From contig JAGRGQ010000001.1 of assembly GCA_020445405.1 (NCBI GenBank), positions 62,001-126,000 on the forward strand: a stretch of DNA of 64,000 nt, in the 5' to 3' direction. Position 1 is the stretch's first letter. Every line of letters starts with the position of its first letter. Below are positions 6,909 through 42,977 of this stretch, in pieces. A program made the position numbers and the translations under genes. This DNA comes from Gammaproteobacteria bacterium (GTDB lineage: Bacteria; Pseudomonadota; Gammaproteobacteria; Chromatiales; Chromatiaceae). The notes below the pieces were generated by a model that was not told the origin of the DNA, made no database searches, and worked only from the letters and a program-made list of their open reading frames with translations.

Positions 6909-7161
6909 CTTTGATGCCTCTTCAGTTTCTAGGATTGACGGAACTTATCGCGGTTTGATCTCTATTCCGGACGGAGACCGCATTGCCTCAAACGAGTGTA
7001 ACCTGTGAAATATCGAACCTTTTTAGTATAGTGCCTGAATATGGAATCGTCTGTAACGGACATTGGACGATGCATGGTGATGCGGCCGCTCCCGCGTGTC
7101 GCGCTCCATGCTGACAGCGATGACAGAAGAGCCCTTTCACCAGCCTGGAGCAAAAATTCCG

Positions 7162-8127
7162 ATGAGTGACAAACCCGTTGTGCTGGTTACCAGAAAGCTT
7201 CCGGCGGCTGTGGAGGAGCGTCTTCAGCGGGATTATGATGCCCGTCTTAATGGCAGCGACCGGATCTACCGCAGCGACGAGCTGATCGAATTGGCAAAAG
7301 GTGCCGATGCCATCGTGCCGTGCCACACGGAAAAGCTTAACGCCGATGTGATCGCACGCCTGCCGGATAGCATCCGCGCCATTACCAGTTTCTCGGTTGG
7401 ATTCGATCATATCGACCTGCCGGCGGCAAAAGCGCGGGGAATCATTGTGACCAATACACCCGAAGTGCTGAGCGATGCAACTGCGGAGATCGCCATGCTG
7501 CTGCTGCTCGGCGCGGCTCGTCGGGCATACGAGGGCGAGCAGCAGATACGCAGCGACAGCTGGAGCGACTGGAGTGCAACCTACCAGCTCGGTCTGCAGG
7601 TCAGCGGCAAGCGCCTGGGTATTGTCGGTATGGGCCGGGTGGGGCAGATCATGGCCCGGCGGGCGCGCGGCTTCGACATGCAGATTCACTATTATAACCG
7701 CAGCAGGCTCCCGCCCGATCTTGAACTCGGGGCGCGCTATCATAACGCCGTGGAATCGCTGTTGCCGCATTGCGATTTTCTCTCGATACACTGTCCGGCA
7801 ACGCCGGAGACCCGTCATCTGCTGAACGCTGAACGCATTGCGCTGCTGCCGGACGACGCGGTGGTGGTGAATACCGCGCGCGGTGCGGTGGTTGACGACG
7901 ATGCGCTGATCGCCGCGCTGCGCTCCGGCAAGCTGTTCGCGGCCGGTCTTGACGTATTCAATGATGAACCGCGTATTCACCCCGGTTACCGCGAGCTGAA
8001 GAACACCTTCCTGTTGCCGCACATCGGCAGCGCGACGCGCGAAACCCGGGATGCGATGGGGTTTCGTGCGCTGGATAATCTCGATGCCATCATGGCCGGC
8101 AGGGAGCCACGCGACCGGCTGGTCTGA
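7162..8127 (+). CDS. D-2-hydroxyacid dehydrogenase (glyoxylate/hydroxypyruvate reductase-like)
   Basis: This 321-residue member of the D-isomer specific 2-hydroxyacid dehydrogenase family has the NAD(P) loop GIVGMGRVGQ near residues 154-163, the catalytic-arginine motif NTARGAVVDDDAL near 237-249, and the acid-histidine pair region DEPRIHPGYRELKNTFLLPHIG, in which the active-site His lies in PHIGSATRET. The family reduces glyoxylate or hydroxypyruvate to glycolate or D-glycerate. The neighbouring malate synthase G and tartronate-semialdehyde-type reductase support that role. The open frame reaches back to 7096, but the family N-terminus (MSDKPVVLVTRK) starts at the ATG at 7162, behind a GGAG ribosome site at 7147-7150. 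Confidence 0.88.
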   Translation: MSDKPVVLVTRKLPAAVEERLQRDYDARLNGSDRIYRSDELIELAKGADAIVPCHTEKLNADVIARLPDSIRAITSFSVGFDHIDLPAAKARGIIVTNTPEVLSDATAEIAMLLLLGAARRAYEGEQQIRSDSWSDWSATYQLGLQVSGKRLGIVGMGRVGQIMARRARGFDMQIHYYNRSRLPPDLELGARYHNAVESLLPHCDFLSIHCPATPETRHLLNAERIALLPDDAVVVNTARGAVVDDDALIAALRSGKLFAAGLDVFNDEPRIHPGYRELKNTFLLPHIGSATRETRDAMGFRALDNLDAIMAGREPRDRLV

Positions 8128-23162: not shown

Positions 23163-23190
23163 AAGATGTCTGCGGGGAGAGACACGCTAA

Positions 23191-23520
23191 ATGACAGATC
23201 TCATCATCAAGTCCCTGGGCATGTATGGACTGACTATTGTCATCTCCATGCTCTCTGCCTGCCTGATCAAATTGATCGTGGTGGTTATCGCCAAATCGGA
23301 AGACAGAAGAAAGCAGGCCAGAATCAAGGCGGAGAAGGTGCCGGAGCCTGCGCTTACCGGTGACGTGGACGCCAGCCATGTGGCTGCGATTTCTGCTGCA
23401 GTTTTTGCCGTGCTGGGCAGTCACCGCATAGTTCATATCGAAGGGGCAAGACAGACACCCAGCTGGGCTGTGGAGGGGAAACTGCAGCATCACACTTCAC
23501 ACAATGTTCGACGAACTTAA
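23191..23520 (+). CDS. Sodium-pump decarboxylase small membrane subunit (OadG/MmdD-like)
   Basis: The 109-residue product has one N-terminal membrane helix (about residues 8-33, GMYGLTIVISMLSACLIKLIVVVIA) followed by a charged linker and a hydrophilic tail (residues 35-109). This is the organisation of the gamma subunit of oxaloacetate decarboxylase and delta subunit of methylmalonyl-CoA decarboxylase, which hold the complex together. Residues AAISAAVFAVLGSHRIVHIEG match the common C-terminal part of that family. It lies between the alpha subunit (28 bases upstream) and the biotin carrier (83 bases downstream). The ribosome site is GGGGAGAG. Confidence 0.85.
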   Translation: MTDLIIKSLGMYGLTIVISMLSACLIKLIVVVIAKSEDRRKQARIKAEKVPEPALTGDVDASHVAAISAAVFAVLGSHRIVHIEGARQTPSWAVEGKLQHHTSHNVRRT

Positions 23521-23603
23521 TACCGGCACTTAATAACGAATTCAGCTTGATACAATGGCAGTAAACCATTGCGCAGAGTTTCAGGGGGTCAGACAGACGA
23601 ATT

Positions 23604-23990
23604 ATGGAAAGGAAATTTAAAGTTACCGTGGATGGCAAGCCCTACGAAGTCATCGTCGAGGATGTTTCGGAAGTGGGCACCAATTTATATCCATCACCGG
23701 GGCTGAGGGCCAATATAGTCACCACTGCACCCGCCGCGGCCGCAGCAACTGCCGCACCGGCAAACGCTGCAACAGGCGCCGATGAACTGCCCAGTCCGCT
23801 GTCGGGCGTGATTGTTGAAATCGCTGTCAGTCCCGGCATGTCCGTCGCAAAAGGCGACAAGGTCATTGTTGTGGAGGCGATGAAGATGAAGACGATGGTA
23901 AGCGCCCACAAATCAGGCAAGATCTCCTCTATCGCAGTTGCCGTCGGTGACGGCGTGGAAGCAGGCCAGGCTTTGATGGTTATCGCGTAG
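23604..23990 (+). CDS. mmdC: Biotin carrier subunit of the sodium-pump decarboxylase
   Basis: The 128-residue product has an N-terminal stretch typical of biotin-attachment subunits (MERKFKVTVDGKPYEVIVEDV), an alanine/threonine/proline-rich linker (about 38-60) and a C-terminal biotinyl domain. The biotinylated lysine is K94 in VVEAMKMKTMV, with the usual PLSGVI and GDGVEAGQALMVI flanks. It accepts the carboxyl group from the alpha subunit and carries it to the membrane beta subunit. The linker lets the domain swing between the two. It ends 19 bases before the beta-subunit start. Confidence 0.93.
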   Translation: MERKFKVTVDGKPYEVIVEDVSEVGTNLYPSPGLRANIVTTAPAAAAATAAPANAATGADELPSPLSGVIVEIAVSPGMSVAKGDKVIVVEAMKMKTMVSAHKSGKISSIAVAVGDGVEAGQALMVIA

Positions 23991-24009
23991 GTCACCGAAG
24001 GCGGAATCC

Positions 24010-25212
24010 ATGGATATCAATTTTCTGAATATTTTCCAGGGCCTGGCGACGCTGTCCGATTCAGAGCCGAAAATCATGATCGGGCGCATCTTTCTGATGT
24101 TTCTGGGCATGCTGCTGATATATCTTGGAAGAAAAGGCATTTTGGAAGCGCTGCTGATGATACCGATGGGCCTGGGTATGGCAACGGTCAACGCCGCCGT
24201 GCTGTTTCTGGATGACGGCCGTAAGGGCACCCTTTTTCTGGATCCCCTGATCAATAACAGCGAACAGTTGATAACCATGCTGCAGATTGACTGGCTGCAG
24301 CCAATTTACACTTTTACTTTTTCCAATGGCTTGATTGCATGTCTGGTGTTCATGGGTATTGGCGTCCTGCTGGACGTGGGTTTCGTCATGGCAAGACCCT
24401 TCACCTCCATGTTCATCGCGCTTTGCGCGGAGATCGGCACCGTCATCACGCTGCCGTTGGCCGTATGGATGGGTCTGCCAGTCGCGGATGCGGCCGCCAC
24501 AGCCACTATCGGCGGTGCGGACGGGCCAATGATACTGTTCACGGCGTTGATTTTGTCCAAAGACCTGTTTGTGCCTATCACCGTAGTTGCCTATCTCTAC
24601 CTGGGACTGACTTACGGCGGCTATCCCTGGTTGATTAAACTGATGGTGCCGCGTCATATACGCGGCATGAAAATGCCGGTGGAGAAGACCCGGGAAATCT
24701 CGTCGACGGAAAAGTTGGTTTTCGCCGTGATCGCCAACGTGATTCTATGTCTGTTGTTCCCGGTGGCGGCACCCCTGTTTTTCTCTCTCTTTATCGGTGT
24801 GATCATTCGAGAAAGCGGAATGGTCAAGTTTGCCGAAACTTTCTCTGGCCCGATCCTTTACGGGGCCACTTTCTTTCTCGGCCTTTTGCTTGGCATCCTG
24901 TGCGAAGCCAGTACCATTCTGAGCCCGGACGTGCTGACTCTTCTGATCCTGGGAATCGTGGCGCTGACGTTTTCCGGTATCGGCGGATTGCTGGGCGGAT
25001 GGGTTTTATATTTCGTAACCGGCAAAAAGTTTAATCCGGTAATTGGAATTGCCGGGGTCAGTTGTGTGCCCACCTGCGCCAAGGTGGCGCAAAAATCGGT
25101 TGCTGAGGTGACTCCCGACGCTGTGGTGTTGCCGCATGCACTTGGGGCCAGTATTTCAGGCGTTATCACATCGGCAATTTTTGCCGGTGTGCTGATTACA
25201 CTGGTCAGATAG
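24010..25212 (+). CDS. mmdB: Sodium-pumping decarboxylase beta subunit (OadB/MmdB)
   Basis: The 400-residue protein has about ten membrane segments. It decarboxylates carboxybiotin and couples this to Na+ export. Signature stretches are ATIGGADGPMILFTALILSKDLF (about 160-182), whose aspartate is the key sodium-site residue in the family, and the C-terminal region GVSCVPTCAKVAQKSVAEVTPDAVVLPHALGASISGVITSAI. The length fits MmdB/GcdB/OadB. As the last gene of the four-gene operon it makes the complex complete: the cell can turn (S)-methylmalonyl-CoA into propionyl-CoA and store the energy as a sodium gradient. It converges with the polyprenyl sugar transferase. Confidence 0.95.
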   Translation: MDINFLNIFQGLATLSDSEPKIMIGRIFLMFLGMLLIYLGRKGILEALLMIPMGLGMATVNAAVLFLDDGRKGTLFLDPLINNSEQLITMLQIDWLQPIYTFTFSNGLIACLVFMGIGVLLDVGFVMARPFTSMFIALCAEIGTVITLPLAVWMGLPVADAAATATIGGADGPMILFTALILSKDLFVPITVVAYLYLGLTYGGYPWLIKLMVPRHIRGMKMPVEKTREISSTEKLVFAVIANVILCLLFPVAAPLFFSLFIGVIIRESGMVKFAETFSGPILYGATFFLGLLLGILCEASTILSPDVLTLLILGIVALTFSGIGGLLGGWVLYFVTGKKFNPVIGIAGVSCVPTCAKVAQKSVAEVTPDAVVLPHALGASISGVITSAIFAGVLITLVR

Positions 25213-25417: not shown

Positions 25418-26845
25418 TCAATACGCGTTTCTACTGAACAGAGCGAACAGTGTCCGCACCATAATGCTGAGGTCAAACGCAATTGACCAGTTGTTGATAT
25501 ATTCGAGATCGCTCTGAACCCGCTTCTCCATCTGCGACAGCTCCTTGGTTTCACCGCGATAACCCCGAACCTGAGCGAGACCTGTAATTCCGGGCTTGAT
25601 GCGGTGGCGGGTAAGGTAGTCGGAGATGCGTTTTGAATACTCGACGTTGTGCTGAACGGCATGAGGCCTCGGGCCGACCAGCGACATCTGTCCCGTCAGC
25701 ACATTCAGCAGCTGCGGAAGCTCATCGATGCTGGTTCGTCTTATAAAACGTCCGACTCTGGTTACTCTGGGGTCATCGCGGGTGGCCTGCTCGACCTTGT
25801 CGCTGTCTGACGGCTGCAAGTGCATACTGCGAAACTTCCAAATCTTGAATTCACGGCCGTCCCAGCCGGTCCTGGCCTGACGAAAAAACACCGGTCCCGG
25901 TGATTCGAGTTTAATGGCGATAGCAGTGATCAGGAAAATCGGACTGAGCAGGATGATCGCGATTGTAGCAATTACCTTATCTTCAATGGCTTTGCTCAGC
26001 AGGTGGGTTCCGATGAGCGGGGTCTCCGACAGTGTAAGAATCGGTATTCCGGCCAGTTCCTTCACACTGTGATTTATCAGGTTGAGTGCAAAGATATTCG
26101 GTGCCCAGTGAATGTTCACGTTGGTATCCAGCAGGTCATGGTAGATATCTTTGATCAATGGGGACGCATCGAGGGGGACAGCGATATACACCGTCCGGAT
26201 CTGATGTGCCTGAATCAATTTGCCAATTTCTTCGAGCTTTCCCATCACCGGGATATGATCCGTGTTCGCTTCAGTTGTCGGTTCGCCATTGAGCGTAATG
26301 GCGCCCAATACAACCTCATTCAACCAGGGATTGCTGTTGATCCGGTCAAAAATATGGTTAGCGAGTTCACCGGTGCCGACCACCAGCGCTTTGACCTGTT
26401 CCTGCCGTGCCAGATTGACACGCTGCAGATATCGGAAACCGACATGGCCCGCGACCTGTACCAGGAATCCGAGGACATAGAGCAGGGTGACAATGACGCG
26501 GGAGTAAAGATCTGTACTCTTGGTAAGAAATGCCAGCAGAAACAGCAGGAAAAACGCAATACTCCAGGCCTTCCCCAGCGTCAACAGCTTTTTGGTCATA
26601 CCGCCGTGCAACCGGTAGATGCCAAACCGGTCATAAACCACAGCCATCAGACCAAGCAGCGTAATCGCCAGGATGATGTATTGAGTCGTTAAAGCGTCCT
26701 GGTATATGTAGCTGAGCGATACGGTCAGGATGATGACCAGTAACCCGTCAAGCAGTGCCTGAAACGCATTTGACAGGCTATTGCGGCGCTGTAGCAGGGA
26801 ACGTGTCCGGGATTGATTCTTTAACAACTTTGAACCTGTTTTCAA
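25418..26845 (-). CDS. Undecaprenyl-phosphate sugar phosphotransferase (WcaJ-type)
   Basis: The 475-residue protein starts exopolysaccharide repeat-unit synthesis by moving a sugar-1-phosphate (often glucose) to undecaprenyl phosphate. It has four N-terminal membrane helices (about residues 28-145), a CoA-binding-like Rossmann domain with VVGTGELANHIFDRI (about 163-177), and a C-terminal bacterial sugar transferase domain. That domain contains KLESPGPVFFRQARTGWDGREFKIWKFRSM (about 312-341), RRTSIDELPQLLNVLTGQMSLVGPRPH and KPGITGLAQVRGYRGET. These are the expected catalytic motifs. It is divergent from the rest of the locus, with a 483-base spacer. The product of its opening reaction should feed the export genes that follow. 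Confidence 0.92.
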   Translation of the reverse strand: MKTGSKLLKNQSRTRSLLQRRNSLSNAFQALLDGLLVIILTVSLSYIYQDALTTQYIILAITLLGLMAVVYDRFGIYRLHGGMTKKLLTLGKAWSIAFFLLFLLAFLTKSTDLYSRVIVTLLYVLGFLVQVAGHVGFRYLQRVNLARQEQVKALVVGTGELANHIFDRINSNPWLNEVVLGAITLNGEPTTEANTDHIPVMGKLEEIGKLIQAHQIRTVYIAVPLDASPLIKDIYHDLLDTNVNIHWAPNIFALNLINHSVKELAGIPILTLSETPLIGTHLLSKAIEDKVIATIAIILLSPIFLITAIAIKLESPGPVFFRQARTGWDGREFKIWKFRSMHLQPSDSDKVEQATRDDPRVTRVGRFIRRTSIDELPQLLNVLTGQMSLVGPRPHAVQHNVEYSKRISDYLTRHRIKPGITGLAQVRGYRGETKELSQMEKRVQSDLEYINNWSIAFDLSIMVRTLFALFSRNAY

Positions 26846-28772: not shown

Positions 28773-29987
28773 ATGATGGCAATTAATCGGTTCAAGTTGG
28801 CGGCGGTGTTGCTTTGCAGCTTTTTCCCCGTAGCGGCTTCGGCTGAAAAGTGGTATTGGGAACCCGTGTTCAGGGCGCGCACAGGTTACGATGACAATAT
28901 CAGGCTGGAACCCTCCGACGAAGAATCAGCATTCAACTATCACCTGTCTGGGGATGCCAGGTTCGGATTCAGAACCGAGGTAAGCGACGTCAAGTTCCAG
29001 ACGCTGCTCGCCACCCATCAATATAACGGGTTGAGCGACCTGGATTATAACGAGGCCCTGTTCGGGGTGGATGCCAGTCTGCGCCATGACCTCGATACCT
29101 TTGGTATTGACGCCAGTATTCACAGGGACTCGTCCAGAACCAGCGAGTTGAGCACCACCGGCTCCGTCGACACCAGCATTCCCCGAATCAGGACGTACCT
29201 CAGCCCCAGTTGGAGCCGTAAGTTATCGGAAACCAGCCAGTTACAACTGCATTACGCCTACACCGATGTCAACTATATAAACAAATCGGGCTCTGCTACC
29301 AGCTCTGGTACCAATCTGACCGATTACCGCTATCAAACTGCCGATATCGGACTGATCCGGAAGCTGTCGGAAAAAACCGATTTGCAGACGTTTCTGCTTG
29401 GCAGTCGCTACAAGGCCAGTGGTGTCTATTCGAAGTCTGAGAGCATCGGATTCCAGGTTGGGCTGGCCCACCGATTCAGCGAAACATTCAGCGCTTCCGC
29501 TGCGCTGGGACTCAACTATATCGATACATTATTTCTCAACTCCAACAGGGTAAAGGATGAAGAGAATGATATTGCGCCGCTGGTTTCGATCAGTTTCGAC
29601 AAGACTTGGGAGAGAATGAGCCTGAACGGCTCGTTGACCACTTCCTCATCACCGGGCGGTGAGGGCAGGATGCTGAGCAGAAACAGCGTTGCGCTGGATT
29701 TCAAGCGCAAACTTAGCGAACGGCTCAACTTTGCATTGAACACCAGCTACACCCGGAATGAGACGGCGGGAGGGGTTACGGTTTCCGGGGATACACGCAC
29801 TTATTTCGCCATCGAACCCCGCTTGAGCTGGAAGGCCTCCCGTTGGTGGACCATATCCGGAAGCTATCGCTACCGCGCACAGGAGTATACCGAGAGCGAT
29901 AGCGGTGTGGCGGAATCCAATGCGGTCTATATCGGCGTCGAATATGTCTGGCCGCGTCCCTCCTATGCGCGCTGGATGGAGCTGTAA
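28773..29987 (+). CDS. Outer-membrane beta-barrel protein of the exopolysaccharide locus
   Basis: The 404-residue product has a signal peptide (about residues 1-24, ending SAEKW) and alternating polar/hydrophobic strands throughout, with repeated aromatic ends (GYDDNIRLEPSDEES, LHYAYTDVNYIN, ISGSYRYRAQEYTES). The composition and the DDNI motif after the signal resemble the outer-membrane proteins of exosortase-associated EPS loci (a TIGR03016-like family). It could be the outer-membrane export pore or a surface attachment barrel, compensating for the short export protein upstream. It ends in WMEL rather than the usual C-terminal phenylalanine. Starts at 28773 and 28776 are both possible. Confidence 0.75.
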   Translation: MMAINRFKLAAVLLCSFFPVAASAEKWYWEPVFRARTGYDDNIRLEPSDEESAFNYHLSGDARFGFRTEVSDVKFQTLLATHQYNGLSDLDYNEALFGVDASLRHDLDTFGIDASIHRDSSRTSELSTTGSVDTSIPRIRTYLSPSWSRKLSETSQLQLHYAYTDVNYINKSGSATSSGTNLTDYRYQTADIGLIRKLSEKTDLQTFLLGSRYKASGVYSKSESIGFQVGLAHRFSETFSASAALGLNYIDTLFLNSNRVKDEENDIAPLVSISFDKTWERMSLNGSLTTSSSPGGEGRMLSRNSVALDFKRKLSERLNFALNTSYTRNETAGGVTVSGDTRTYFAIEPRLSWKASRWWTISGSYRYRAQEYTESDSGVAESNAVYIGVEYVWPRPSYARWMEL

Positions 29988-30166: not shown

Positions 30167-31927
30167 ATGGAAGAAGATGTAAAAGGGCTGGGTGAATATC
30201 TGGAGATACTGGACAGGCGCAAGAAGCAGTTTTTCGTGCCTGCGCTGATAATCCTGCTGGCCAGCGTCGGCCTGGCATTCGGATTGCCATCCATCTACAG
30301 GTCGGAAGCGACCATTCTAATCGAACAACAGGAGATTCCCGACGACCTGGTGCGTTCCACCGTCACCTCTTTTGCCGGTGAACGTATACAGATTATCAGT
30401 CAGCGGGTGATGACAACCCAGAACCTGAGCCGGATCATCGAAGAGTACGGTCTCTACGAGGACGAGCGCAGATCCAAAAGTATGAGTGTACTGGTCGAGG
30501 AGATGCGTGAACAGATCGATCTCGAGATGATCAGCGCCGATGTTGTGGATCCCCGCAGTGGCCGGCCCACCACCGCCACCATCGCCTTCAAGGTTGCCTT
30601 TAGCGGTGAGGGGCCGCGGTTGACCCAGAAGGTCGCCAACGATCTGGTGTCGCTGTATCTTGATGAAAACATGAAACAGCGAACAGCGCATGCGGTCGAG
30701 ACTTCCAGTTTCTTGACCGAAGAGGCGGACAAACTTCAGCAACAGATATCTGGACTGGAAGCGAAGCTGGCTGAATTCAAAGAAAATAATATAAATACGC
30801 TGCCCAATCTGCAGCAGCTCAATATTCAGTTGATGGAACGCACGGAACGGGACCTCAAAGACAAGCAACAACAGATACGCACACTTGAAGAGCGCAGAAT
30901 CTACCTGCAGTCGGAATTGGCGCAGATGAATCCAACCAGCAAGCTCTACGACTCGGACGGCAGCCGCGTTCTCAGTTCCGAGGATCGCCTGCAGGCGTTG
31001 GAGAGTCAATACATCAGTCTCTCGGCCCGCTACTCTTCCAATCATCCTGACCTGATTAAGATGGAGAAGGAGATCGCCGCACTCAAAAAAGAGACGGGGG
31101 CAGTTGGAAACGTAAATGAGATCCGCCGTAAGCTGACAGATATGAAATCGCAAATGGCGGTGCTGCGGGACAGATACTCGAGTGAACATCCCGATGTAAA
31201 GAGCTTGCAGCGGACCATCGATATCAATGAAAAATTGCTGCGGGAAGCCAAAAGCAGTAAGCGGCCAAGTCGACGCCAGCCCGGAAGCGGGGAGGCGGAC
31301 AATCCAGCCTATATTCAGCTGCAGGCTCAGCTCAAAGCAGCTAATTCGGAACTGCACTCGCTGCATGAATCCGTGTTGGAAATCGAAGCTAAACTCGCGG
31401 ACTACGAGAACCGCCTGCTGAAAAGCCCTCAGGTGGAAAGGGAATACCTTGACCTGACACGCGAATACGAAAACTCACTGGCCAAGTATCAGGAGGTGAA
31501 GGCGAAACAGTTCCAGGCGGAACTGGCCGAGTCGCTGGAACGGGAGAGCAAGGGTGAGCGTTTCTCTTTAATCGAGCCCCCACAACTGCCGGAGGAGCCG
31601 GACAAGCCAAACCGCATCGCCATTTTCTTTCTCGGGTTTGTCTTCTCATTGGCTGGTGGCTTCGGCACTGTGGCGGTGGCGGAAAGCATGAGCGAAGCCA
31701 TACGCAGTCCAAAGGCATTGATGGCGATCACCAATGCGCCTCCAATGATCGTTATTCCCTATATTGAGATAGCCGCCGACCGCAGCCGCAGGCGGTACCA
31801 GGTGGCGGGTTTGATAGTAGTGGCTATGATTGTCGCTGTAGGGGTGGTCGTCCTGTTCCACAACTTCTTTATGCCTTTGGACGTAGCCTGGTATGTTATA
31901 CAGCGCCGTCTCGGCTTTGACGTCTGA
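30167..31927 (+). CDS. Chain-length determinant protein (Wzz/GumC-like)
   Basis: The 586-residue inner-membrane protein has a first membrane helix at about 20-40, a periplasmic part with long coiled coils (about 175-240 and 330-480, e.g. EEADKLQQQISGLEAKLAEFKENN) and a GNVR-like end (LLKSPQVEREYLDLTREYENSLAKYQEVKAKQ). This is followed by a proline-rich EPPQLPEEPDKPNR and a second helix (about 488-512). A third helix near 545-567 lies beyond the usual end. It controls polymer length and works with the ATPase encoded 18 bases downstream. No cytoplasmic kinase domain is fused. Confidence 0.9.
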   Translation: MEEDVKGLGEYLEILDRRKKQFFVPALIILLASVGLAFGLPSIYRSEATILIEQQEIPDDLVRSTVTSFAGERIQIISQRVMTTQNLSRIIEEYGLYEDERRSKSMSVLVEEMREQIDLEMISADVVDPRSGRPTTATIAFKVAFSGEGPRLTQKVANDLVSLYLDENMKQRTAHAVETSSFLTEEADKLQQQISGLEAKLAEFKENNINTLPNLQQLNIQLMERTERDLKDKQQQIRTLEERRIYLQSELAQMNPTSKLYDSDGSRVLSSEDRLQALESQYISLSARYSSNHPDLIKMEKEIAALKKETGAVGNVNEIRRKLTDMKSQMAVLRDRYSSEHPDVKSLQRTIDINEKLLREAKSSKRPSRRQPGSGEADNPAYIQLQAQLKAANSELHSLHESVLEIEAKLADYENRLLKSPQVEREYLDLTREYENSLAKYQEVKAKQFQAELAESLERESKGERFSLIEPPQLPEEPDKPNRIAIFFLGFVFSLAGGFGTVAVAESMSEAIRSPKALMAITNAPPMIVIPYIEIAADRSRRRYQVAGLIVVAMIVAVGVVVLFHNFFMPLDVAWYVIQRRLGFDV

Positions 31928-31945: not shown

Positions 31946-33010
31946 ATGGAAAGAATCAAAAAGGCACTGGAACGGGCTCGGGAACTGAGGCCTGAGCAGG
32001 CTGACAGCCCTCTGAAAAAGATGCGGGAAGCAGCATCGCGGACCGAACCCGTTCAATCCGACCAGATGTCCGCCAATGTTGCCAAGGTGCAACCGGATAC
32101 CTCTTCGGCTCCTCCGCCCGAAAGCCCTGTCTTGAAGCCGGAACAGGTGGCAGCTCTTGTAGAACCGGTTGCGCGCTCACCGCTGCCGTCGGAGAGCGTG
32201 CAGTCTGGCGCGTCGGGAACAGCCAGGGAGAGTGTCGATGCTCCCGAAAGAGACAAGTTCGTAAAGAGGCCCAAAGGGAGTGCTTCCCATCAGAAATCCG
32301 CTGTTGCCAGCAAAATCGAATACACCCAGACCCGCAGCGTTGAGATTTCCGCGGACCTGCTGGAATCGAATCGTGTGATTGCGGGAATCAAGGATCATCC
32401 TCAATCGGATCTTTTTCGTGTATTGCGAACCAAAATCCTGCACCGGATGCGGGTGGATAAAATCAATTCTCTGGCGATTACCAGCCCCACCAAGGGGGCA
32501 GGTAAATCGATGGTTGCCGCCAACCTCGCAGTAAGCCTGGCGATGGAAGCCAACCAAACGGTGATTCTGGTCGATCTGGATCTGCGGAAACCGGCCATCA
32601 GCCGGTACTTTGGATTCGATGCACAGCAGGGCGTATCGGACTATCTGCTGGAGGGCGCGGAGTTGCCGGGGCTCCTGTTTCAGCCGGGAATCGACCGCCT
32701 GGTTATTCTGCCGGCGGGTAATCCGGTGCCGCAATCGTCCGAGCTGCTTTCCACTCCGCGTATGGCGCATCTGGTGGAGGATATCACCAATCGCTACGCC
32801 ACGCGCATTGTCGTGTTTGATCTGCCGCCGCTGTTGCATCTGGATGATGCACTGATATTTCTGCCCCAGGTAAAATCGAGTTTGCTGGTGGTGGAGGAGG
32901 GGGTGAATACGCCTGCGGAGATAGAGCAGAGTCTCTTGTTACTGGAGAAGTCAAACATGCTGGGCACGGTGTACAATAAAGCCCGCTTGGCCAGGCAATT
33001 ACCGTACTGA
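31946..33010 (+). CDS. CpsD/CapB-family ATPase (BY-kinase-like) of the exopolysaccharide locus
   Basis: The 354-residue protein starts with a basic amphipathic helix (MERIKKALERARELRP), then a low-complexity Ser/Pro/Glu-rich linker to about residue 120, then a MinD/CpsD-type ATPase domain. Walker A is SPTKGAGKSMVAANLA (about 173-188), Walker A' VILVDLDLRKP and Walker B VVFDLPPLL. The C-terminus (ARLARQLPY) lacks the tyrosine cluster that classical BY-kinases autophosphorylate, having one terminal Tyr only. This fits the exosortase-associated tyrosine-kinase-like proteins, whose signalling may differ. It should partner with the chain-length protein upstream. The ribosome site is GGGGGAGA. Confidence 0.88.
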   Translation: MERIKKALERARELRPEQADSPLKKMREAASRTEPVQSDQMSANVAKVQPDTSSAPPPESPVLKPEQVAALVEPVARSPLPSESVQSGASGTARESVDAPERDKFVKRPKGSASHQKSAVASKIEYTQTRSVEISADLLESNRVIAGIKDHPQSDLFRVLRTKILHRMRVDKINSLAITSPTKGAGKSMVAANLAVSLAMEANQTVILVDLDLRKPAISRYFGFDAQQGVSDYLLEGAELPGLLFQPGIDRLVILPAGNPVPQSSELLSTPRMAHLVEDITNRYATRIVVFDLPPLLHLDDALIFLPQVKSSLLVVEEGVNTPAEIEQSLLLLEKSNMLGTVYNKARLARQLPY

Positions 33011-33108: not shown

Positions 33109-34854
33109 ATGGAATCCAGAAATCCCGATAATCCCGATGGCGTCCTGCTGATCGATGAAGAGCATGCGGAAGCGCTGAAAAGACGCTCTTTTGGTTTTAA
33201 ATCCATTACCCTCAACAAGCGCCAGTTATGCGATCTGGAGCTGTTGTTGTGCGGCGGTTTCAAGCCGCTGCAGAGCTTTCTCGATAAAGCATCCTACAAC
33301 AGCGTAGTAGAGAATCTGCGGCTGCCTGATGGCCAATTGTGGCCGATTCCGATAGTGCTCGACGTGGATGCGGCGTTCGTGGAATCCCTCGAACCCGGGG
33401 ATCAGATTGCGCTGCGCGATGCGGAAGGATTCATGCCAGCTGTGCTGACCTTCAGCGAAAGCTGGCAGCCGGACAAACGACGCGAAGCCATAGCCGTGTA
33501 CGGTACCGATTCCAGTGACCATCCGGGGGTGAACTATCTCTACAATGAAACCGGAAACACCTACATCTCCGGTGCACTGGGGGGCATTCATATGCTCCGG
33601 CATCACGATTTTGAGACCCTCTGGAACACTCCGGAGGAGATGCACCGTCTGTTTGACAAGATGGGCTGGCGGCGGGTGGTGGCGTTTCAGACCAGCAGTC
33701 CCATGCACCGTCTGCATCGGGAGATGATCCTGAGTGTGGCAAAAAAACACGAAGCCCACATTCTGCTGCACCCGACCGTCGGTGTCAGCAAACCCGGAGA
33801 TTTGCGCTACTACGCCCGGGTCCACTGCTACGAAGCGATTCGCCGGCACTTCCCTTTGAATATGGCAGCGCTCTCTCTGTTGCCGCTGGCGATGCGCATG
33901 GCAGGCCCGAGAGAGGCTTTGTGGCATGCGATAGTCAATCAGAATTACGGGTGCACCCATTTCATTCTCGGTCCACACCACGCATCTCCGCCAAGGCAGC
34001 CGTCGGTGGCTAACGGCAGTGAAAGCCGGCAGGAGGGATCCCAATTCTACTCTACCTATGCAGCCCAGCAACTTGTAAAAAAGTATGCCGACGACCTTGA
34101 CATTGAAATAGTCGAGGTTGATGAGTGGAAATACGTTCCGGAAAAAGAACGTTTTCTTTCTCAGCGCGAACTCGACGCTGAGGGTCTGACCGGTATCGAC
34201 TACGATAATCCCGATCTGAAACAGGCGTTGACGCAGGGGAGGGAGATACCGGCGTGGTACAGTTATCCAAGCGTGCTTGACGAACTGCGCAAAGTCTATC
34301 CACCGCGAAGCAGACAGGGATTTACCCTGTTCTTCACCGGGCTTTCCGGTTCAGGCAAATCCACTGTTGCGAGAATGCTCTACGCCAAACTGATTGAAGC
34401 CGGAGACCGGCCGGTATCGTTGCTGGATGGGGATGTTGTGCGGCGGAATCTTTCATCCGAACTCGGATTTTCCAAAGCGCATCGCGACATCAATATTCGC
34501 CGCATCGGATTTGTTGCCGGAGAGATAACAAAGAACGGTGGAGTGGCCATCTGCGCACCTATTGCACCCTATCGTGAAACCCGCCGTGCGGTACGCGAAC
34601 TGATTGAGGATCACGGCGCCTTTATCGAGATTCATGTATCCACTCCGCTGGAGGTGTGCGAGGCGCGGGATCGGAAAGGCCTTTATGCGAAAGCCAGAAA
34701 AGGGATTATCCCGGACTTCACCGGTATCAGCGATCCCTACGACGTACCTGCGTGCCCGGAATTGAGACTCGATACCAGCACACTCACCCCCGCGCAGGCG
34801 GTGCAGGAGGTACTGCTGTATCTTTTCAAAGAGGGTTTTATCGATGAGAGCTGA
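33109..34854 (+). CDS. Fused ATP sulfurylase-like/adenylylsulfate kinase protein with altered sulfurylase motifs
   Basis: The 581-residue protein joins an ATP-sulfurylase domain (about 15-390) to an APS kinase domain (about 402-578). The kinase part looks intact: P-loop GLSGSGKST at 410-418, LDGDVVRRNLSSELGFS, NIRRIGFVAGE and EARDRKGLYAKARKGIIPDFTGISDPY. The sulfurylase part keeps overall similarity and HRLH at 200-203. However, the normally invariant Q-[TL]-R-N motif reads QTSS (194-197), and the nucleotide-binding GRDxAG reads GPHHAS (288-293), followed by an unusual polar insertion. Sulfurylase activity is therefore doubtful. The position in a polysaccharide locus suggests a role in making PAPS for sulfation, but no sulfotransferase is seen nearby. 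Confidence 0.85.
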   Translation: MESRNPDNPDGVLLIDEEHAEALKRRSFGFKSITLNKRQLCDLELLLCGGFKPLQSFLDKASYNSVVENLRLPDGQLWPIPIVLDVDAAFVESLEPGDQIALRDAEGFMPAVLTFSESWQPDKRREAIAVYGTDSSDHPGVNYLYNETGNTYISGALGGIHMLRHHDFETLWNTPEEMHRLFDKMGWRRVVAFQTSSPMHRLHREMILSVAKKHEAHILLHPTVGVSKPGDLRYYARVHCYEAIRRHFPLNMAALSLLPLAMRMAGPREALWHAIVNQNYGCTHFILGPHHASPPRQPSVANGSESRQEGSQFYSTYAAQQLVKKYADDLDIEIVEVDEWKYVPEKERFLSQRELDAEGLTGIDYDNPDLKQALTQGREIPAWYSYPSVLDELRKVYPPRSRQGFTLFFTGLSGSGKSTVARMLYAKLIEAGDRPVSLLDGDVVRRNLSSELGFSKAHRDINIRRIGFVAGEITKNGGVAICAPIAPYRETRRAVRELIEDHGAFIEIHVSTPLEVCEARDRKGLYAKARKGIIPDFTGISDPYDVPACPELRLDTSTLTPAQAVQEVLLYLFKEGFIDES

Positions 34855-34857
34855 ACA

Positions 34858-35739
34858 TTGAGAGGCATTATTCTGGCAGGAGGTTCAGGTACGCGGTTAT
34901 ACCCCCTCACCAAGGCAGTCAGCAAACAGCTGATGCCTGTCTATGATAAACCGATGATCTATTATCCGCTCTCGACACTGATGCTGGCGGGAATACGCGA
35001 GATTCTGATCATATCCACGCCCGATGATTTGCCGCAGTACCGGAAACTGCTGGATGACGGAAGTCAGTTCGGCCTGCGGCTCGAATATGCCGAGCAGCCA
35101 CGACCCGAGGGGTTGGCTCAGGCGTTCATTATCGGACGCGAGTTCATAGGCGGTGAGAGTTGCTGCCTGATTCTCGGTGACAATATCTTTTACGGATACG
35201 GTCTTGGCACCAATCTGTCCAATGCGGTGAGGCGGGAGAACGGCGCCAGCGTGTTCGCCTACAGAGTGAGCGATCCTGGACGTTATGGTGTGGTCGATTT
35301 CGATACCAGGGGTCAGGCGGTATCGATCGAAGAGAAACCAGAAAAGCCGAAATCCAACTATGCGGTCACCGGACTCTATTTCTACGACAACCGGGTCGTG
35401 GATGTTGCCGCCGCTTTGCAGCCCTCGGCACGCGGCGAGTTGGAGATCACCGACGTCAACAACAAATATCTGGCATGGGGGGATCTACATGTCGAGATTC
35501 TCAGTCGGGGCACTGCCTGGCTGGATACCGGAACCCATCAGTCGTTGCTGCAGGCGTCGACATTTATCGAAACCGTCGAGCAGCGGCAGGGCCTTAAGAT
35601 CTCCTGCGTGGAGGAGATAGCCTACCGCAAGGGCTATATAGATGCGGCCCAGCTGGAGCGTCTCGGCAGGGAACTGGAAAAGAACGACTATGGACGTTAC
35701 CTGCTGAATCTCCTGGAACAGGAGCGGGAGCGCCTTTGA
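34858..35739 (+). CDS. rfbA: Glucose-1-phosphate thymidylyltransferase
   Basis: RfbA makes dTDP-glucose from dTTP and glucose-1-phosphate, the first step of dTDP-L-rhamnose synthesis. The 293-residue product has the nucleotide-binding [31 protein letters not shown] (residues 3-33), [13 protein letters not shown] (about 82-94) and LGDNIFYG (about 107-114), all typical. The start is a TTG at 34858 whose N-terminus (MRGIILAGG) matches the family exactly. The only nearby upstream ATG runs into the TGA at once. The gene begins 3 bases after the sulfurylase/kinase stop and overlaps rfbC by 4 bases. Confidence 0.95.
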
Positions 35740-36296
35740 AGATCAGCACCACCGCGATCCCGCAGGTGGTTGTAGTCGAACCGGATGTGTTTGGCGACGC
35801 GCGCGGATATTTTCTTGAGACCTGGCATGCGCTCCGCTACGCGAAAGCGGGTCTGGATACCCAATTTGTGCAGGACAACCGTTCCCGCTCCCGCTACGGG
35901 GTGCTGCGCGGACTCCACTACCAGCTTAACCAACCCCAGGGTAAGCTGGTAAGCGTCTCTCATGGCCGGGTATTCGACGTGGCGGTGGATATCCGTCGCG
36001 GTTCGCCCTGGTTCGGCCGCTGGGTCGGTGCGGAGTTAAGCGATATCAATCACAAGCAGCTCTACATCCCTCCAGGTTTCGCCCACGGGTTCTGTGTGCT
36101 CAGCGAGATGGCTGATTTTTCCTATAAGTGCACTGAATTTTATGCCCCTGACGATGAGCACGGCATCCTCTGGAACGATCCTGATATCGCCATTGCATGG
36201 CCGGGTGGTGACTTCCAGGTTTCGGAAAAAGATGCCGGCAACAAACGGCTCAAAGAGATGGGTGAGTTGCTGCCCGTCTATCGAGCGGCCAGATGA
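35736..36296 (+). CDS. rfbC: dTDP-4-dehydrorhamnose 3,5-epimerase
   Basis: RfbC epimerises dTDP-4-keto-6-deoxyglucose on the way to dTDP-L-rhamnose. The 186-residue cupin-fold product contains [11 protein letters not shown] (about 22-32), [20 protein letters not shown] (about 47-66) with the catalytic histidine, and [15 protein letters not shown] (about 110-124). The start is another TTG, at 35736, overlapping the rfbA stop (TTGA), with GGAGCGGGAG just upstream. Its stop overlaps the rfbD start by 4 bases (ATGA). Translational coupling across all three rfb genes is therefore likely. Confidence 0.95.
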
Positions 36297-37171
36297 AACT
36301 TCTGGTGACCGGTGCCTCCGGACAGCTGGGACGGGAGGTAGCCGCCCTGCTGGGTGACGAGCACCATCAAGTTGTTGCGGTCGATCGCGCTGCCCTGGAT
36401 TTCTCCTTCCCCGACAGGGTTGCCCAGGGTATTGCACAGGAGTGTGCGGACTGGGTCATCAATTGTGCCGCCTACACCGGGGTCGACAGAGCCGAACAGG
36501 AGCGCGATGCCGCGTTTCTGGTTAACCGGGACGGCGCGCTGGCGGTGGCCGAAGGGGTAAAAAGCTATGGCGGTCGTCTGCTTCAGATCTCCACGGATTT
36601 TATTTTTGACGGCGGGCAGTCTACGCCTTACACAGAGGAGGATGAAGCCAGTCCACTAAGTGCATACGGTCGTTCCAAATGGGAAGGCGAAAAAGCCGTT
36701 CTACAGTGCATGCCTGATGCTGTCATACTGCGCACGGCATGGGTTTATGGAGTGCACGGCAACAATTTCGTCAAGACCATGCTTCGGTTGGCTGCGGAGC
36801 GCGAAGAGCTCGGGGTGGTGGATGACCAGATCGGTACGCCGAGCTGGACCTTCGATATCGCACGCGCTGTCCAGGCGCTGATAGCCGCTGATGCGTCCGG
36901 AATCTATCACTTCACCAACGAAGGGGTTGCCTCCTGGTTCGATTTTGCCAGCGAGATCCTCAACACTGCCAGCGAACTCGGATGCCCGGTCAGAACGAAA
37001 CGGGTAAGGCCCATTCCCACCAGCGACTATCCGACTCCCGCGGTACGGCCCGCGTATTCAGTATTGAGCAAGTGCAAAATCCGTGGCCTGCTGGACTACA
37101 ATATCCCGCATTGGCGGACCAGCCTTAACGCGATGCTGAGGCAACTGCTTTTAGGTGATGGGTCCGGGTAA
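36293..37171 (+). CDS. rfbD: dTDP-4-dehydrorhamnose reductase
   Basis: RfbD makes dTDP-L-rhamnose with NAD(P)H. The 292-residue short-chain dehydrogenase/extended family protein has VTGASGQLGREVA (residues 4-16), NCAAYTGVDRAEQE (about 58-71), the catalytic STDFIFDG...YTEEDEASPLSAYGRSKWEGE (Y-x3-K) and TAWVYGVHGNNFVKTMLRLA. All are standard for the family. The dehydratase RfbB that should act between RfbA and RfbC is not in this cluster and must be encoded elsewhere if the pathway works. Confidence 0.95.
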   Translation: MKLLVTGASGQLGREVAALLGDEHHQVVAVDRAALDFSFPDRVAQGIAQECADWVINCAAYTGVDRAEQERDAAFLVNRDGALAVAEGVKSYGGRLLQISTDFIFDGGQSTPYTEEDEASPLSAYGRSKWEGEKAVLQCMPDAVILRTAWVYGVHGNNFVKTMLRLAAEREELGVVDDQIGTPSWTFDIARAVQALIAADASGIYHFTNEGVASWFDFASEILNTASELGCPVRTKRVRPIPTSDYPTPAVRPAYSVLSKCKIRGLLDYNIPHWRTSLNAMLRQLLLGDGSG

Positions 37172-38335: not shown

Positions 38336-39934
38336 TCAAAGCAGTTTTGGAACCCGGATAATGTCCATTTCTGCCTTGTAGACCGAGGTCTCAACCTCCA
38401 GCAGACCCAAAATAGTGTGGAACAGGTTGTCGTGCGAATATTTTTTTCCGATGCTGTTCCGCAGATTGCTGACATTCACGACGTCGTTATTCGCTCCAAA
38501 CCACATAATGGCAGGAATGTGGCGCTGGGTTTCGGGTGCCAAAGCGTAGGGTAGTCCATGCAGGTAGAGTCCGCCTTCACCCAGAGATTCGCCGTGGTCG
38601 CTGACATAGATCAAGCCGGTCTCGAATCCATCGTCGTTCGATTTCAATAAAGCGATTACCTTGGATAAGAAGTAGTCTGTATACAGGATTGCGTTATCGT
38701 ACGCGTTATCGATCTCCTGTTTACTGCAATCCTCCAGCTGGTTGGTTTTGCAGGCCGGCGTGAACTTCTCAAACGATGGGGGATAACGTTTGTAGTAGGC
38801 TGGCCCATGATTGCCCATCTGGTGCAGCACGATGAAAATATCGCCGGTTGGGTGCTTGTCAATATACGCCTGCAACCCGTCGAGCATCCCTTCGTCCCGG
38901 CATTCAGTATCGCATACCGGATTGATTTTGGCCGATTTGTAGCTTTCATAGGGTACACGCAGCGCCACCCCTTTTGACGAGGAGTTATTCTCTCTCCAGA
39001 GTACGTTTACCCCGGTATGCTGCAAAATATCGAGTATATTCTCGACTGATGCGGCTTTGGACTCGGTATAATCAGCGCGCCCGTAAATGGAAAATATGCA
39101 AGGTACCGAAGATGCAGTGGAAGTGCCGCAGGACCAGAAATTCTTAAAACTGATTACGTTTTCCAGCTTGAGAAGCGGGTTTGTCTCGCGGGCATAACCA
39201 TTCAAAGAGAAGCGGTCATACCTGGCCGTCTCTCCAAGCACGAAAATGATCAGTTCCCGGTGACCGTCAGTGGCCGCTATCCTCGCATCCTCACCGATTC
39301 GTTTTATCGGACCCTGCTCCTGTTCCATGATTCCGGCCACATACTTGACGGAGGCGTAAATATAGGTGGTCGGATTGGTATAGTAGCGCAGTGGCTTGTG
39401 CTCCCGGATAAAGGAGGCGTAGTGACTGCCAAACGCAAAAACCATGGCTGCAGAGACGGCCAGTGTCGGGATCACGAGTTTCATTCTGGCGACGAGTGCG
39501 GACCGGAGGGGACGGGTTTGAAACGACAAGCGCCGGACGACAAGCGCGGGCAGGACACCAAGCAGCAAAAAATAGATGATCAGTTTGACCGTTATCAGAT
39601 CAAGGACTTCGTTCGTATCGGTCATGACCATATTCTGGATCATGCCGTCGTCAATGATCACATGATAGCTATCCATAAAATAAGCGGTCACGGATGTAAT
39701 AAGAACCAGGGGTATCACAACCGGTTTAAGCGTGCGGCGGTAACAGACCAGCGAGAGGAGCAGGATAAACACACAGGTGAGTACCGTGGCGATCGAGATG
39801 AAGAAAAACGCATTCGGCAGGGAGAGCGGATAGACCTGTGAAACGTTGGTAAAAAACGTCAGGTTGTAAAGACCGGTAAACAAGACAGCGATGAGAATGA
39901 TCGCTCTTTCCACCGAAATTGTAGCACTGTTCAT
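38336..39934 (-). CDS. EptA-type lipid A phosphoethanolamine transferase
   Basis: The 532-residue inner-membrane enzyme has five N-terminal helices (about 10-180) and a periplasmic alkaline-phosphatase-fold domain. Zinc and nucleophile features are visible: FVLGETARYDRFSLNGY (metal Glu), SCGTSTASSVPCIFSIYGR (nucleophile Thr), HQMGNHGPAYYKRYP and YVSDHGESLGEGGLYLHG (Asp-His ligands). These match EptA/MCR-family enzymes that add phosphoethanolamine to lipid A and often lower sensitivity to cationic peptides. Another surface glycan could be the acceptor, given the location next to the exopolysaccharide genes. The gene is separate, converging with the alpha/beta hydrolase. Confidence 0.9.
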   Translation of the reverse strand: MNSATISVERAIILIAVLFTGLYNLTFFTNVSQVYPLSLPNAFFFISIATVLTCVFILLLSLVCYRRTLKPVVIPLVLITSVTAYFMDSYHVIIDDGMIQNMVMTDTNEVLDLITVKLIIYFLLLGVLPALVVRRLSFQTRPLRSALVARMKLVIPTLAVSAAMVFAFGSHYASFIREHKPLRYYTNPTTYIYASVKYVAGIMEQEQGPIKRIGEDARIAATDGHRELIIFVLGETARYDRFSLNGYARETNPLLKLENVISFKNFWSCGTSTASSVPCIFSIYGRADYTESKAASVENILDILQHTGVNVLWRENNSSSKGVALRVPYESYKSAKINPVCDTECRDEGMLDGLQAYIDKHPTGDIFIVLHQMGNHGPAYYKRYPPSFEKFTPACKTNQLEDCSKQEIDNAYDNAILYTDYFLSKVIALLKSNDDGFETGLIYVSDHGESLGEGGLYLHGLPYALAPETQRHIPAIMWFGANNDVVNVSNLRNSIGKKYSHDNLFHTILGLLEVETSVYKAEMDIIRVPKLL

Positions 39935-40075: not shown

Positions 40076-41491
40076 TCAGGATTTGTTTCCCGAGTGCAGG
40101 TAGTCGCTGTCGGCATGTTCCTCGTCTATTCCGTATCTCTTCAACTTACGCCATAACGAGACGCGATCTATGCCCAGAATCTTTGCCGTCCGGGTACGGT
40201 TGTCACCACAACTTGCGAGTACATACCGAATATAGTCAGCTTCCCGTTCAACCAGTGTCGGCAGACGCCGTCCCGCCTTTTCGCGCACGATATGTACCGC
40301 ATGCTCTGAAAGTGTGGCTGGGAGACTGGCCATGGTGAGTAAATTCTCCCGCGCCAGAACCACCCCGCGTTCGATGATATTTTCCAACTCGCGAATATTA
40401 CCCGGATAGTGATAATCAAGCAGCGCAATCATTGCCGCAGGATCGATATCATCCACTGCACGGCCCATGCGCAATGCATGCTTTTGCAGAAAATGGTACG
40501 CCAGCAGCGGGATATCGCCCCGCCGTTGGGCCAGTGACGGCAGGCGCAGTCCAACCACGTCAAGACGGTAGTATAGATCCTGGCGGAAACGTCCGGCCTC
40601 GACCGCTTCGCGCAAATCCTGGTGCGTGGCTGCTATCAACCGGATATCGACAGGGTTCGTTTTTATCGCCCCGAGCCGTTGGACCTCCCTTTCCTGGACG
40701 ACCCTCAGCAGCTTTACCTGCATTCTCAGAGACATCTCCGCAATCTCATCCAGGAACAGCGTACCACCGTCTGTCGCCTCGATCAGTCCAATGCGTGATT
40801 CGTTGGCACCGGTATAGGCACCTTTCTCATGGCCAAAAAGCTCATTTGCAAGAAGTTCCTCCTGCAGCGCGCCGCAATTGACGGCCTGAAAGGTTTTATC
40901 TTTTCGACTGCTCTGATCGTGAATCAAACGAGCCAGCAGTTCCTTGCCGGTTCCACTCTCTCCAGTTATCAGGACGTTGGTATCGGTGGGTGCGACTTGT
41001 TGCGCCATCTCCAGAAGTCGCCGCATGACGGCATCCTGTGTGATAATGGCCGAACCACCCTGGCCGGTTGTCAGCTGACTCTTCAACTGCCGGTTTTCCC
41101 GTTTCAGCTGGACCATTTGCAGGGCATTACGCACGACCTCGCGTACCTCGTCCAGACGGAAAGGTTTGGCAATATAATGAAACGCTCCCGATTTCATCGC
41201 ATTTACAGCAGAATTCAGAGTGGCGTAGCCTGTGATCAGAATTACCGCAGTGTCCGGGCTGGCTGCTTTGGCACGTTCGAGTATCGCCATGCCATCCACC
41301 TGCTCCATACGCAAATCGGATAGAATGACATCGAATCGGTTGAGCTCCATCGCCTCTATTGCACCGATACCGGTCGTCCGCGTCGTGACTTCGTACCCCT
41401 CTTTCCGACAGACATGAGCCAGATTTTCCACAGCGGTCGCTTCGTCGTCGACGATCAGTATGCTGCCTGTACCGGTTCGGAGATCAAACAC
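40076..41491 (-). CDS. Sigma-54-dependent response regulator (NtrC family)
   Basis: The 471-residue activator has a receiver domain (phosphoacceptor D59 in VILSDLRMEQVDG), an AAA+ domain with Walker A GESGTGKELL (about 175-184), the sigma-54 contact loop GAYTGA (a normal variant of GAFTGA) and LFLDEIAEMSLRMQ, and a Fis-type helix-turn-helix (NRTRTAKILGIDRVSLWRKLKRYG). It should activate sigma-54 promoters after phosphorylation by the kinase encoded just upstream (4 bases apart). Likely targets are the divergent SLC13 transporter gene at 43391 and possibly the phosphate carrier at 47454, both preceded by sigma-54-like elements. Confidence 0.93.
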   Translation of the reverse strand: MFDLRTGTGSILIVDDEATAVENLAHVCRKEGYEVTTRTTGIGAIEAMELNRFDVILSDLRMEQVDGMAILERAKAASPDTAVILITGYATLNSAVNAMKSGAFHYIAKPFRLDEVREVVRNALQMVQLKRENRQLKSQLTTGQGGSAIITQDAVMRRLLEMAQQVAPTDTNVLITGESGTGKELLARLIHDQSSRKDKTFQAVNCGALQEELLANELFGHEKGAYTGANESRIGLIEATDGGTLFLDEIAEMSLRMQVKLLRVVQEREVQRLGAIKTNPVDIRLIAATHQDLREAVEAGRFRQDLYYRLDVVGLRLPSLAQRRGDIPLLAYHFLQKHALRMGRAVDDIDPAAMIALLDYHYPGNIRELENIIERGVVLARENLLTMASLPATLSEHAVHIVREKAGRRLPTLVEREADYIRYVLASCGDNRTRTAKILGIDRVSLWRKLKRYGIDEEHADSDYLHSGNKS

Positions 41492-41495
41492 TTCA

Positions 41496-42977
41496 CTATT
41501 CCCTGCAGGGGAGCAAAATTATTACCTGAGTTCCTTTTCCCGGCCGAGAACTGATCGCCAGGCAGCCATCGTGTTCGCTCACGATCTCCTGGACTATGTA
41601 CAAACCCAGCCCAACGCCATGCCCCGGTTCTCCTGTGGTGAAGAAGGGATCGAAAACTTTGGGAAGCTGTTCAGCCGGTATACCGGGCCCATCATCGGCA
41701 ACCAGTATCTCGATGTATAGTCCATTGTAATCGGTGATGAACCTGAGGTCTCCCGCCACTTCGGCCCCATCCGGAAATACCGCAGGGGACGGTTCGCGTA
41801 ACCTGGCCTGGATCTGCAACTGAACGCCCCGACCGCCGGCATTGAGAGCATTCTGAATCAGGTTGATAAACAGCTGCTGCATACGTTGTTTATCCACATC
41901 TATGCTGAGCTCCTTGGGGATGTTGATTTTCAGATTTGCCGAATGGAGCTGTAGCGTCTGTCCGATAATGATCTGCGTCTCCTTGATAAGTTCCCGCAGT
42001 CTCAGCGGGCTCTTCTGAAAGATGTTGCGGCTGCCGAAATCGAGGAGTGTCCGGACGATATTGCGGCCGCGCTCGGTTTCACTGTCGATCTGTTTCAACC
42101 AGGTGTAGAGCTGCTCCTGATCCGCTTCCGTAAGCTCCTCCATCAGCAGCTGGCAGGAAGATGAGATATTGGACAGTGGATTATTAAGCTCATGCGCCAC
42201 ACCGGAAGCCAGTATTCCCAGTGATGCCAGCTTCTCGGATTGCAGCATGCGCTTCTGACGGCTCTTCAGCTCGTTGAGCATGCGGTTGAACGCATCGGTG
42301 AAGGCGACAAACTCACGGTCACCCGACGGCGGATTCAGGTGATTGAACTGTCCTTTGGCGATTGGCATCAGATTAGACTCCAGCTGCTTCAGCGGAGTCA
42401 CTGCCGCACGTTTGAGCTGACGTCCAACGATGTAAATGGAAAGTCCTATCATAAAAAGCGAGATGAACAAAAACCACTGTGATTCCCGAACCATCTTCTC
42501 CAGCATACGATGCTCCCGAAAAGACAGCGATTCGACGTCGGTATAGATTTTGTGACCCAGCGCTCGTATGCTGTTTTGACGTGCATCCCGTTCTGTTTCC
42601 GCTGCATCCTGCCAACGACTCAGGCTGTCGCGGTAGGCAGTTAAGCCGTGAATTAAATCCGATGAATCGGATTCGCTTAAAAGTGCTTTGAGCAAGGCAA
42701 TATTCTCATGCAGGATCTCACGCGCCAGCGAAGCCTGTTCGTCGGCCCTGGCGAGCGCGTCGAAGTCTGCATAGAGCAACAGGTTTTTTTCTTCACGCCG
42801 CATTTCCAGGACTGCATTTCTCAAGTCGGCGATCACCTCTCCCTCGGTCACCTGCCGTTCAAGCAGCAGAAGTCCCGAAAACGCTATTATACCAAGCGCC
42901 AGTGTACTGATAACCAGCGTAATATATGCACTTGTGATTTTGCCCCGTAAACTGTTCAGATCGAAGAGGGTAGTCAT
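41496..42977 (-). CDS. Membrane sensor histidine kinase partnered with the sigma-54 regulator
   Basis: The 493-residue kinase has one helix at 15-39, a periplasmic four-helix-bundle-like sensor (about 40-165, EMRREEKNLLLYADFDALARADEQ), a second helix at 167-184, a HAMP linker, the dimerisation helix with H262 in SGVAHELNNPLSN, and an ATPase domain (N-box FINLIQNALNAGG, G-boxes DDGPGIP and GHGVGLGLYIVQEI). The helical sensor looks like ligand-binding TarH or four-helix modules rather than PAS or Cache. It forms an operon with the response regulator and is divergent from the SLC13 gene. Confidence 0.92.
   Translation of the reverse strand: MTTLFDLNSLRGKITSAYITLVISTLALGIIAFSGLLLLERQVTEGEVIADLRNAVLEMRREEKNLLLYADFDALARADEQASLAREILHENIALLKALLSESDSSDLIHGLTAYRDSLSRWQDAAETERDARQNSIRALGHKIYTDVESLSFREHRMLEKMVRESQWFLFISLFMIGLSIYIVGRQLKRAAVTPLKQLESNLMPIAKGQFNHLNPPSGDREFVAFTDAFNRMLNELKSRQKRMLQSEKLASLGILASGVAHELNNPLSNISSSCQLLMEELTEADQEQLYTWLKQIDSETERGRNIVRTLLDFGSRNIFQKSPLRLRELIKETQIIIGQTLQLHSANLKINIPKELSIDVDKQRMQQLFINLIQNALNAGGRGVQLQIQARLREPSPAVFPDGAEVAGDLRFITDYNGLYIEILVADDGPGIPAEQLPKVFDPFFTTGEPGHGVGLGLYIVQEIVSEHDGCLAISSRPGKGTQVIILLPCRE

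Follow-up and report, generated by a model that had tools for sequence, protein, structure and literature searches.

The Thiobacillus denitrificans protein Tbd_0210 reportedly combines a sulfurylase-like domain that has lost catalytic residues with an active APS kinase. The paper on this protein, as its title is cited elsewhere (PMC13213808), describes a two-domain hexameric APS kinase without ATP sulfurylase activity. The Entamoeba histolytica APS kinase likewise consists of an inert sulfurylase-like domain fused to a working kinase (PMC13213808, PMC6715247). Removing the inert domain lowers kcat about 100-fold, and interdomain contacts raise kinase turnover (PMC13213808). The Penicillium enzyme (PDB 1i2d) has the same architecture and also one non-catalytic half, but it represents the reverse case: its sulfurylase is active, and its kinase-like half (GYMNSGKDA, LGD) is an inert allosteric domain (PMC13213808).

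We analyzed a 64,000-nucleotide stretch of a gammaproteobacterial genome (the window) that encodes a 581-residue fusion protein (33109–34854, forward strand). The protein contains a PUA-like N-terminal domain (Pfam accession PF14306, E 1e-42; residues 14–158, 33148–33582), an ATP-sulfurylase domain that is probably catalytically dead, judging by its motif losses (PF01747, 2.5e-69; residues 170–395, 33616–34293), and an intact APS kinase domain (PF01583, 1.8e-59; residues 403–555, 34315–34773). Pfam and NCBIfam models agree on the PUA, ATP-sulfurylase and APS kinase layout of bifunctional Sat-CysC proteins. Over residues 13–579 the protein scores 791 bits against NF004040, the NCBIfam model for bifunctional sulfate adenylyltransferase/adenylylsulfate kinase, which has a curated cut-off of 669. 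It also matches the solved structures 1i2d (E 5e-157), 2gks (Aquifex, 3e-145) and 3cr8 (Tbd_0210, 3e-145). An AlphaFold model built from 7 sequences (mean pLDDT 65, pTM 0.50) was too weak for judging the pocket; 1i2d, 2gks and 3cr8 were nonetheless its top-ranked Foldseek matches, at an rmsd of 8–9 Å.

The window protein probably works solely as an APS kinase, on a pseudo-sulfurylase scaffold, and would receive APS from a separate Sat and most likely make PAPS for a surface glycan. Although the ATP-sulfurylase fold persists in its N-terminal half, residues for holding sulfate and the alpha-phosphate are missing there, and this half would make no APS. This half may instead serve as an oligomerization or regulatory scaffold for the kinase half, which would convert APS to PAPS.

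We set the motif positions by aligning the window protein with 1i2d, 2gks and the yeast structure 1j70. The segment at 33688–33987 corresponds to codons 194–293 of the fusion gene. At its start, QTSS replaces QxRN (residues 194–197, 33688–33699), and at its end GPHHAS replaces GRDHA[G/S] (residues 288–293, 33970–33987). The alignment places these stretches on the QTRN and the GRDHAG or GRDHAS of the solved enzymes, bearing out two motif calls made earlier without database searches (the sequence-only reading). The final Ser of GPHHAS is unremarkable, since the Aquifex enzyme reads GRDHAS. A third altered motif, which that reading missed, is DNPDLK in place of SGTxxR (residues 366–371, 34204–34221). 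The reading had also noted a polar insertion behind the GRD position. A longer loop is indeed present there (residues 294–312, 33988–34044), with 17 residues (296–312) compared with 6–7 in canonical fusions, but the same loop spans 3–27 residues among altered-motif relatives and therefore varies in length too much to count as a defined insert. The kinase P-loop GLSGSGKST (residues 411–419, 34339–34365), the DGD motif (440–442, 34426–34434) and the NIRR motif (462–465, 34492–34503) were correctly described as intact. The fungal combination of active sulfurylase motifs with a degenerate kinase P-loop is not found in the window protein.

The contacts made by these motifs are described for the A. 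vinosum ATP sulfurylase. In its QxRN loop, Gln and Arg contact sulfate, and Thr, Arg and Asn contact the alpha-phosphate (PMC3779200). In its GRD loop, Gly, the main-chain oxygen of Arg, and His contact the ribose, and Ala contacts sulfate, while the SGTxxR Arg turns towards sulfate in a related structure (PMC3779200). By this comparison, QTSS and DNPDLK remove the anion-binding Arg, the alpha-phosphate Asn and the SGTxxR Arg from the window protein. Loss of the GRD Arg is not decisive by itself, since this residue reaches the ribose with its main-chain oxygen. The Gln, Thr, His and Ala contact positions are still present. The HxxH motif (H200/H203) is also kept, and the pocket retains His200, Lys228, Asp231, His291 and Ala292.

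We searched 194 family, 369 class and 398 phylum genomes for relatives and ran one scan of named contigs, the matches of which include a Sedimenticola MAG. The resulting set of 119 sequences comprises the window protein, three solved references and 115 full-length fusions; the Entamoeba enzyme is not in the tree. Sixty-six of the 119 sequences are canonical, with QTRN, GRDHA[G/S] and SGTxxR intact, and the proteobacterial canonical fusions are about 52–57% identical to the window protein. In a tree built with the motif columns taken out, 41 sequences including the window protein form one clade (SH-aLRT 99), mostly from Gammaproteobacteria. The QxRN Arg, present in 66/66 canonical fusions, is absent from 41/41 clade members. 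The GRD Arg, likewise found in 66/66 canonical fusions, is replaced by Pro in 38/41, giving a GP motif; the remaining three clade members carry GTE or GND. In HxxH, Gln or Glu takes the place of the second His in 27/41, and the alpha-phosphate-binding Asn position varies (K/N/Q/S/R). A private mutation and an assembly or sequencing error are both ruled out by identical departures in about 40 other genomes.

All ten kinase positions that we checked are invariant in 41/41 clade members. We also considered a different substrate for the kinase, for which the kinase motifs offer no support.

Clade members share near-fixed residues, including Pro289 (93%), Pro295 (93%), Ala236 (95%) and Tyr234 (88%). 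It is conceivable, if rather unlikely, that the altered pocket (GPxHAxPP, Tyr234, Ala236) took on a new ligand-binding role, for example as a sensor through which APS, PAPS or a sugar nucleotide controls the kinase. Such a protein would be the mirror image of the fungal enzyme, whose dead kinase half regulates its sulfurylase.

On the best tree, which implies four changes between canonical and altered states, another twelve altered fusions fall outside the window clade, among them T. denitrificans 3cr8. On this tree the 3cr8 group is separate from the window clade and more degenerate, but forcing all altered fusions into one clade is not rejected (AU test, p-AU 0.20). The 3cr8 protein has the same domain order as the window protein and aligns with it over residues 12–124 and 152–578. 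The residue losses differ: 3cr8 reads QARQPMHRAQ and GGEH where the window protein reads QTSSPMHRLH and GPHH. The 3cr8 protein thus retains the QxRN Arg and lacks its Asn, the second His and GRD.

The Entamoeba enzyme resembles the window protein in having a sulfurylase-like domain N-terminal to a kinase with intact motifs; unlike the window protein, it is eukaryotic, dimeric and shorter (477 aa). Two 2026 structures that the window protein matches (PDB 23vk and 23vl) are probably this enzyme. The Aquifex enzyme and the proteobacterial NF004040 fusions are full-length homologs with the architecture of the window protein, but these bifunctional fusions have intact QTRN, GRDHA[G/S] and SGTxxR motifs, and a separate sulfurylase is rare in their hosts. 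Enzymes that pair an altered sulfurylase-like domain with a working kinase have already been described in T. denitrificans and Entamoeba, and the window protein, as far as architecture and motif loss tell, joins them with a signature of its own. By analogy, it most likely works as these two enzymes do.

Most genomes of the clade encode a further sulfurylase. We found a second ATP-sulfurylase domain in 34 of the 37 clade genomes searched and CysD in one more (G764), for a total of 35/37. Neither another sulfurylase nor CysD was found in the other two of these 37 genomes, G186 (80% complete) and G508. The separate Sat was read in the window genome and 30 others, and QTRN and GRDHAG are intact in all 31. 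Hosts of GND-type and other altered fusions also carry a separate Sat or CysD. Few of the 42 canonical-fusion genomes have a second sulfurylase, and this is mostly another fusion; we read one standalone Sat (G314). Counted per protein in the tree and ignoring relatedness, another sulfurylase accompanies 48/50 altered and 3/23 canonical fusions (Fisher p 8.5e-13). Only two supported phylogenetically independent pairs bear on this link, which is therefore an association and not phylogenetic proof. In one genome (G423, contig C31, 24425–27146), a degenerate fusion adjoins a CysD gene, and a canonical fusion lies on another contig.

The kinase would obtain its APS from the canonical Sat encoded separately in the same genome, and in sulfur-oxidizing relatives possibly from AprBA as well. 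AprA exceeds the cut-off in 31/45 altered-fusion genomes and in 0/30 canonical-fusion genomes. AprA is also common in same-family relatives whatever their fusion, and lineage may explain the skew towards altered-fusion genomes. Our search of the window genome did not find AprA.

If the substitutions are tolerated, the sulfurylase half could be weakly or conditionally active, making the protein a slow bifunctional PAPS synthase. We regard this as improbable. Retention of His200, His203, Asp231, His291 and Ala292, GRD-loop backbone contacts that could survive, and a score that exceeds the curated bifunctional-family cut-off are consistent with residual activity. Against it, the QxRN Arg is invariant in the canonical fusions and in the 31 separate Sat proteins read, another sulfurylase is present in nearly all hosts, and 3cr8 is reported, in the title cited in PMC13213808, to lack sulfurylase activity despite retaining the QxRN Arg.

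Among pairs binned at a kinase identity of 0.7–0.8, mean identity in the sulfurylase domain is 0.525 within the clade, compared with 0.714 in canonical fusions. For the PUA domain in the same bin, the values are 0.559 and 0.561. Constraint has slackened specifically in the catalytic sulfurylase domain. The domain is still about 55% identical within the clade, and such conservation could reflect a retained or altered catalytic role.

One such role would be that of an adenylyltransferase for another oxyanion or acid, in which case the kinase would phosphorylate that activated compound. CysC homologs with other substrates are known in Campylobacter capsule synthesis, and the clade combines its own near-fixed residues with conserved parts of the pocket (HR, KPGD, GPRE and GxHA). 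We nevertheless consider this quite improbable: every APS-kinase residue checked is kept, the sulfurylase domain has a higher evolutionary rate than its counterpart in canonical fusions, the alpha-phosphate Asn position is variable, and the second catalytic His is gone in two thirds of the clade. That the fusion gene is decaying towards loss and its N-terminal half has no selected role is hardly credible: the sulfurylase domain does evolve faster and three related loci have an in-frame stop inside the match, but full-length open frames occur in about 40 genomes, the PUA domain is conserved as in canonical fusions, and clade-specific residues are fixed above 90%.

A pseudo-sulfurylase joined to a working APS kinase is thus the best-supported reading, given the motif losses, the faster-evolving domain, the separate intact Sat and the 3cr8 precedent. 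The sequence-only reading had proposed such a pseudoenzyme and, in addition, that it feeds PAPS to polysaccharide sulfation. This second part is not established: no sulfotransferase was recognized nearby, and two that lie in a glycan locus are on another contig.

The fusion gene lies in an exopolysaccharide locus, as the sequence-only reading had recognized. Upstream on the forward strand are genes for an XrtA-type polysaccharide export protein (Wza-like; TIGR03027, PF02563; 28157–28717), an XrtA-type chain-length determinant (Wzz-like; TIGR03007, 8e-77, just under the cut-off; 30167–31927) and an XrtA-type tyrosine autokinase (TIGR03018, 3e-53, under the cut-off; 31946–33010). A gene for an undecaprenyl-phosphate glucose phosphotransferase (TIGR03023, 476 bits; 25418–26845) is on the reverse strand. 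Downstream, starting 3 bp past the fusion, are forward-strand dTDP-rhamnose genes named from their translated sequences: rfbA, glucose-1-phosphate thymidylyltransferase (34858–35739); rfbC, dTDP-4-dehydrorhamnose epimerase (35736–36296); and rfbD, dTDP-4-dehydrorhamnose reductase (36293–37171). Six or seven other clade loci have same-cluster rhamnose genes close to the fusion, and fourteen have a nucleotide-sugar epimerase/dehydratase there.

We then looked for a second sat and for sulfotransferases in the window genome, as the sequence-only reading had suggested, and found both. The genome encodes a canonical Sat (L003) besides the fusion. Its assimilation cluster has CysC beside CysH, with CysJ nearby. 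PAPS from the fusion would most likely be used in surface glycan sulfation, because the fusion gene sits in an exopolysaccharide/dTDP-rhamnose operon while assimilation has its own CysC beside CysH. The genome has three sulfotransferase matches, none of them recognized among the open reading frames scanned around the fusion gene. Four other genomes (G315, G525, G273 and G330) have a sulfotransferase match within about 5 kb of the fusion.

Two of the three matches in the window genome belong to a glycan locus of contig C55 (L231, 22000–41000; genes at 7115–8041 on the reverse strand and 10252–11271 on the forward strand of the locus). This locus also holds glycosyltransferases (GT4), an O-antigen ligase, a lipid A acyltransferase and a heptosyltransferase-like gene, and its product is possibly a sulfated lipopolysaccharide. 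The third match (contig C253, 28440–29009, reverse strand) falls in a 627-aa open frame that also matches TPR models, including an XrtA-system TPR protein.

The window protein scores well above the NCBIfam bifunctional cut-off, so automatic annotation probably credits the protein and its relatives with a sulfurylase activity that they most likely lack, and metabolic models of sulfur bacteria would inherit such an error. APS kinases carrying an inert sulfurylase domain are known in few cases; the clade would extend this type to many genomes and offer a natural series in which to ask why a catalytically dead domain is retained. In addition, the fusion points to operons whose products may include sulfated exopolysaccharides.

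Other genes in the window include one for a 404-aa protein without a Pfam or NCBIfam match, encoded between the export and chain-length genes (28773–29987, forward strand). An EptA-type lipid A phosphoethanolamine transferase gene (NF028537, 647 bits; 38336–39934, reverse strand) adjoins genes for a sigma-54-type response regulator and a histidine kinase (40076–42977). The segment at 21609–25212 (forward strand) encodes a carboxyl transferase and a sodium-pumping decarboxylase beta subunit, close to malonate/methylmalonyl-CoA decarboxylase systems.
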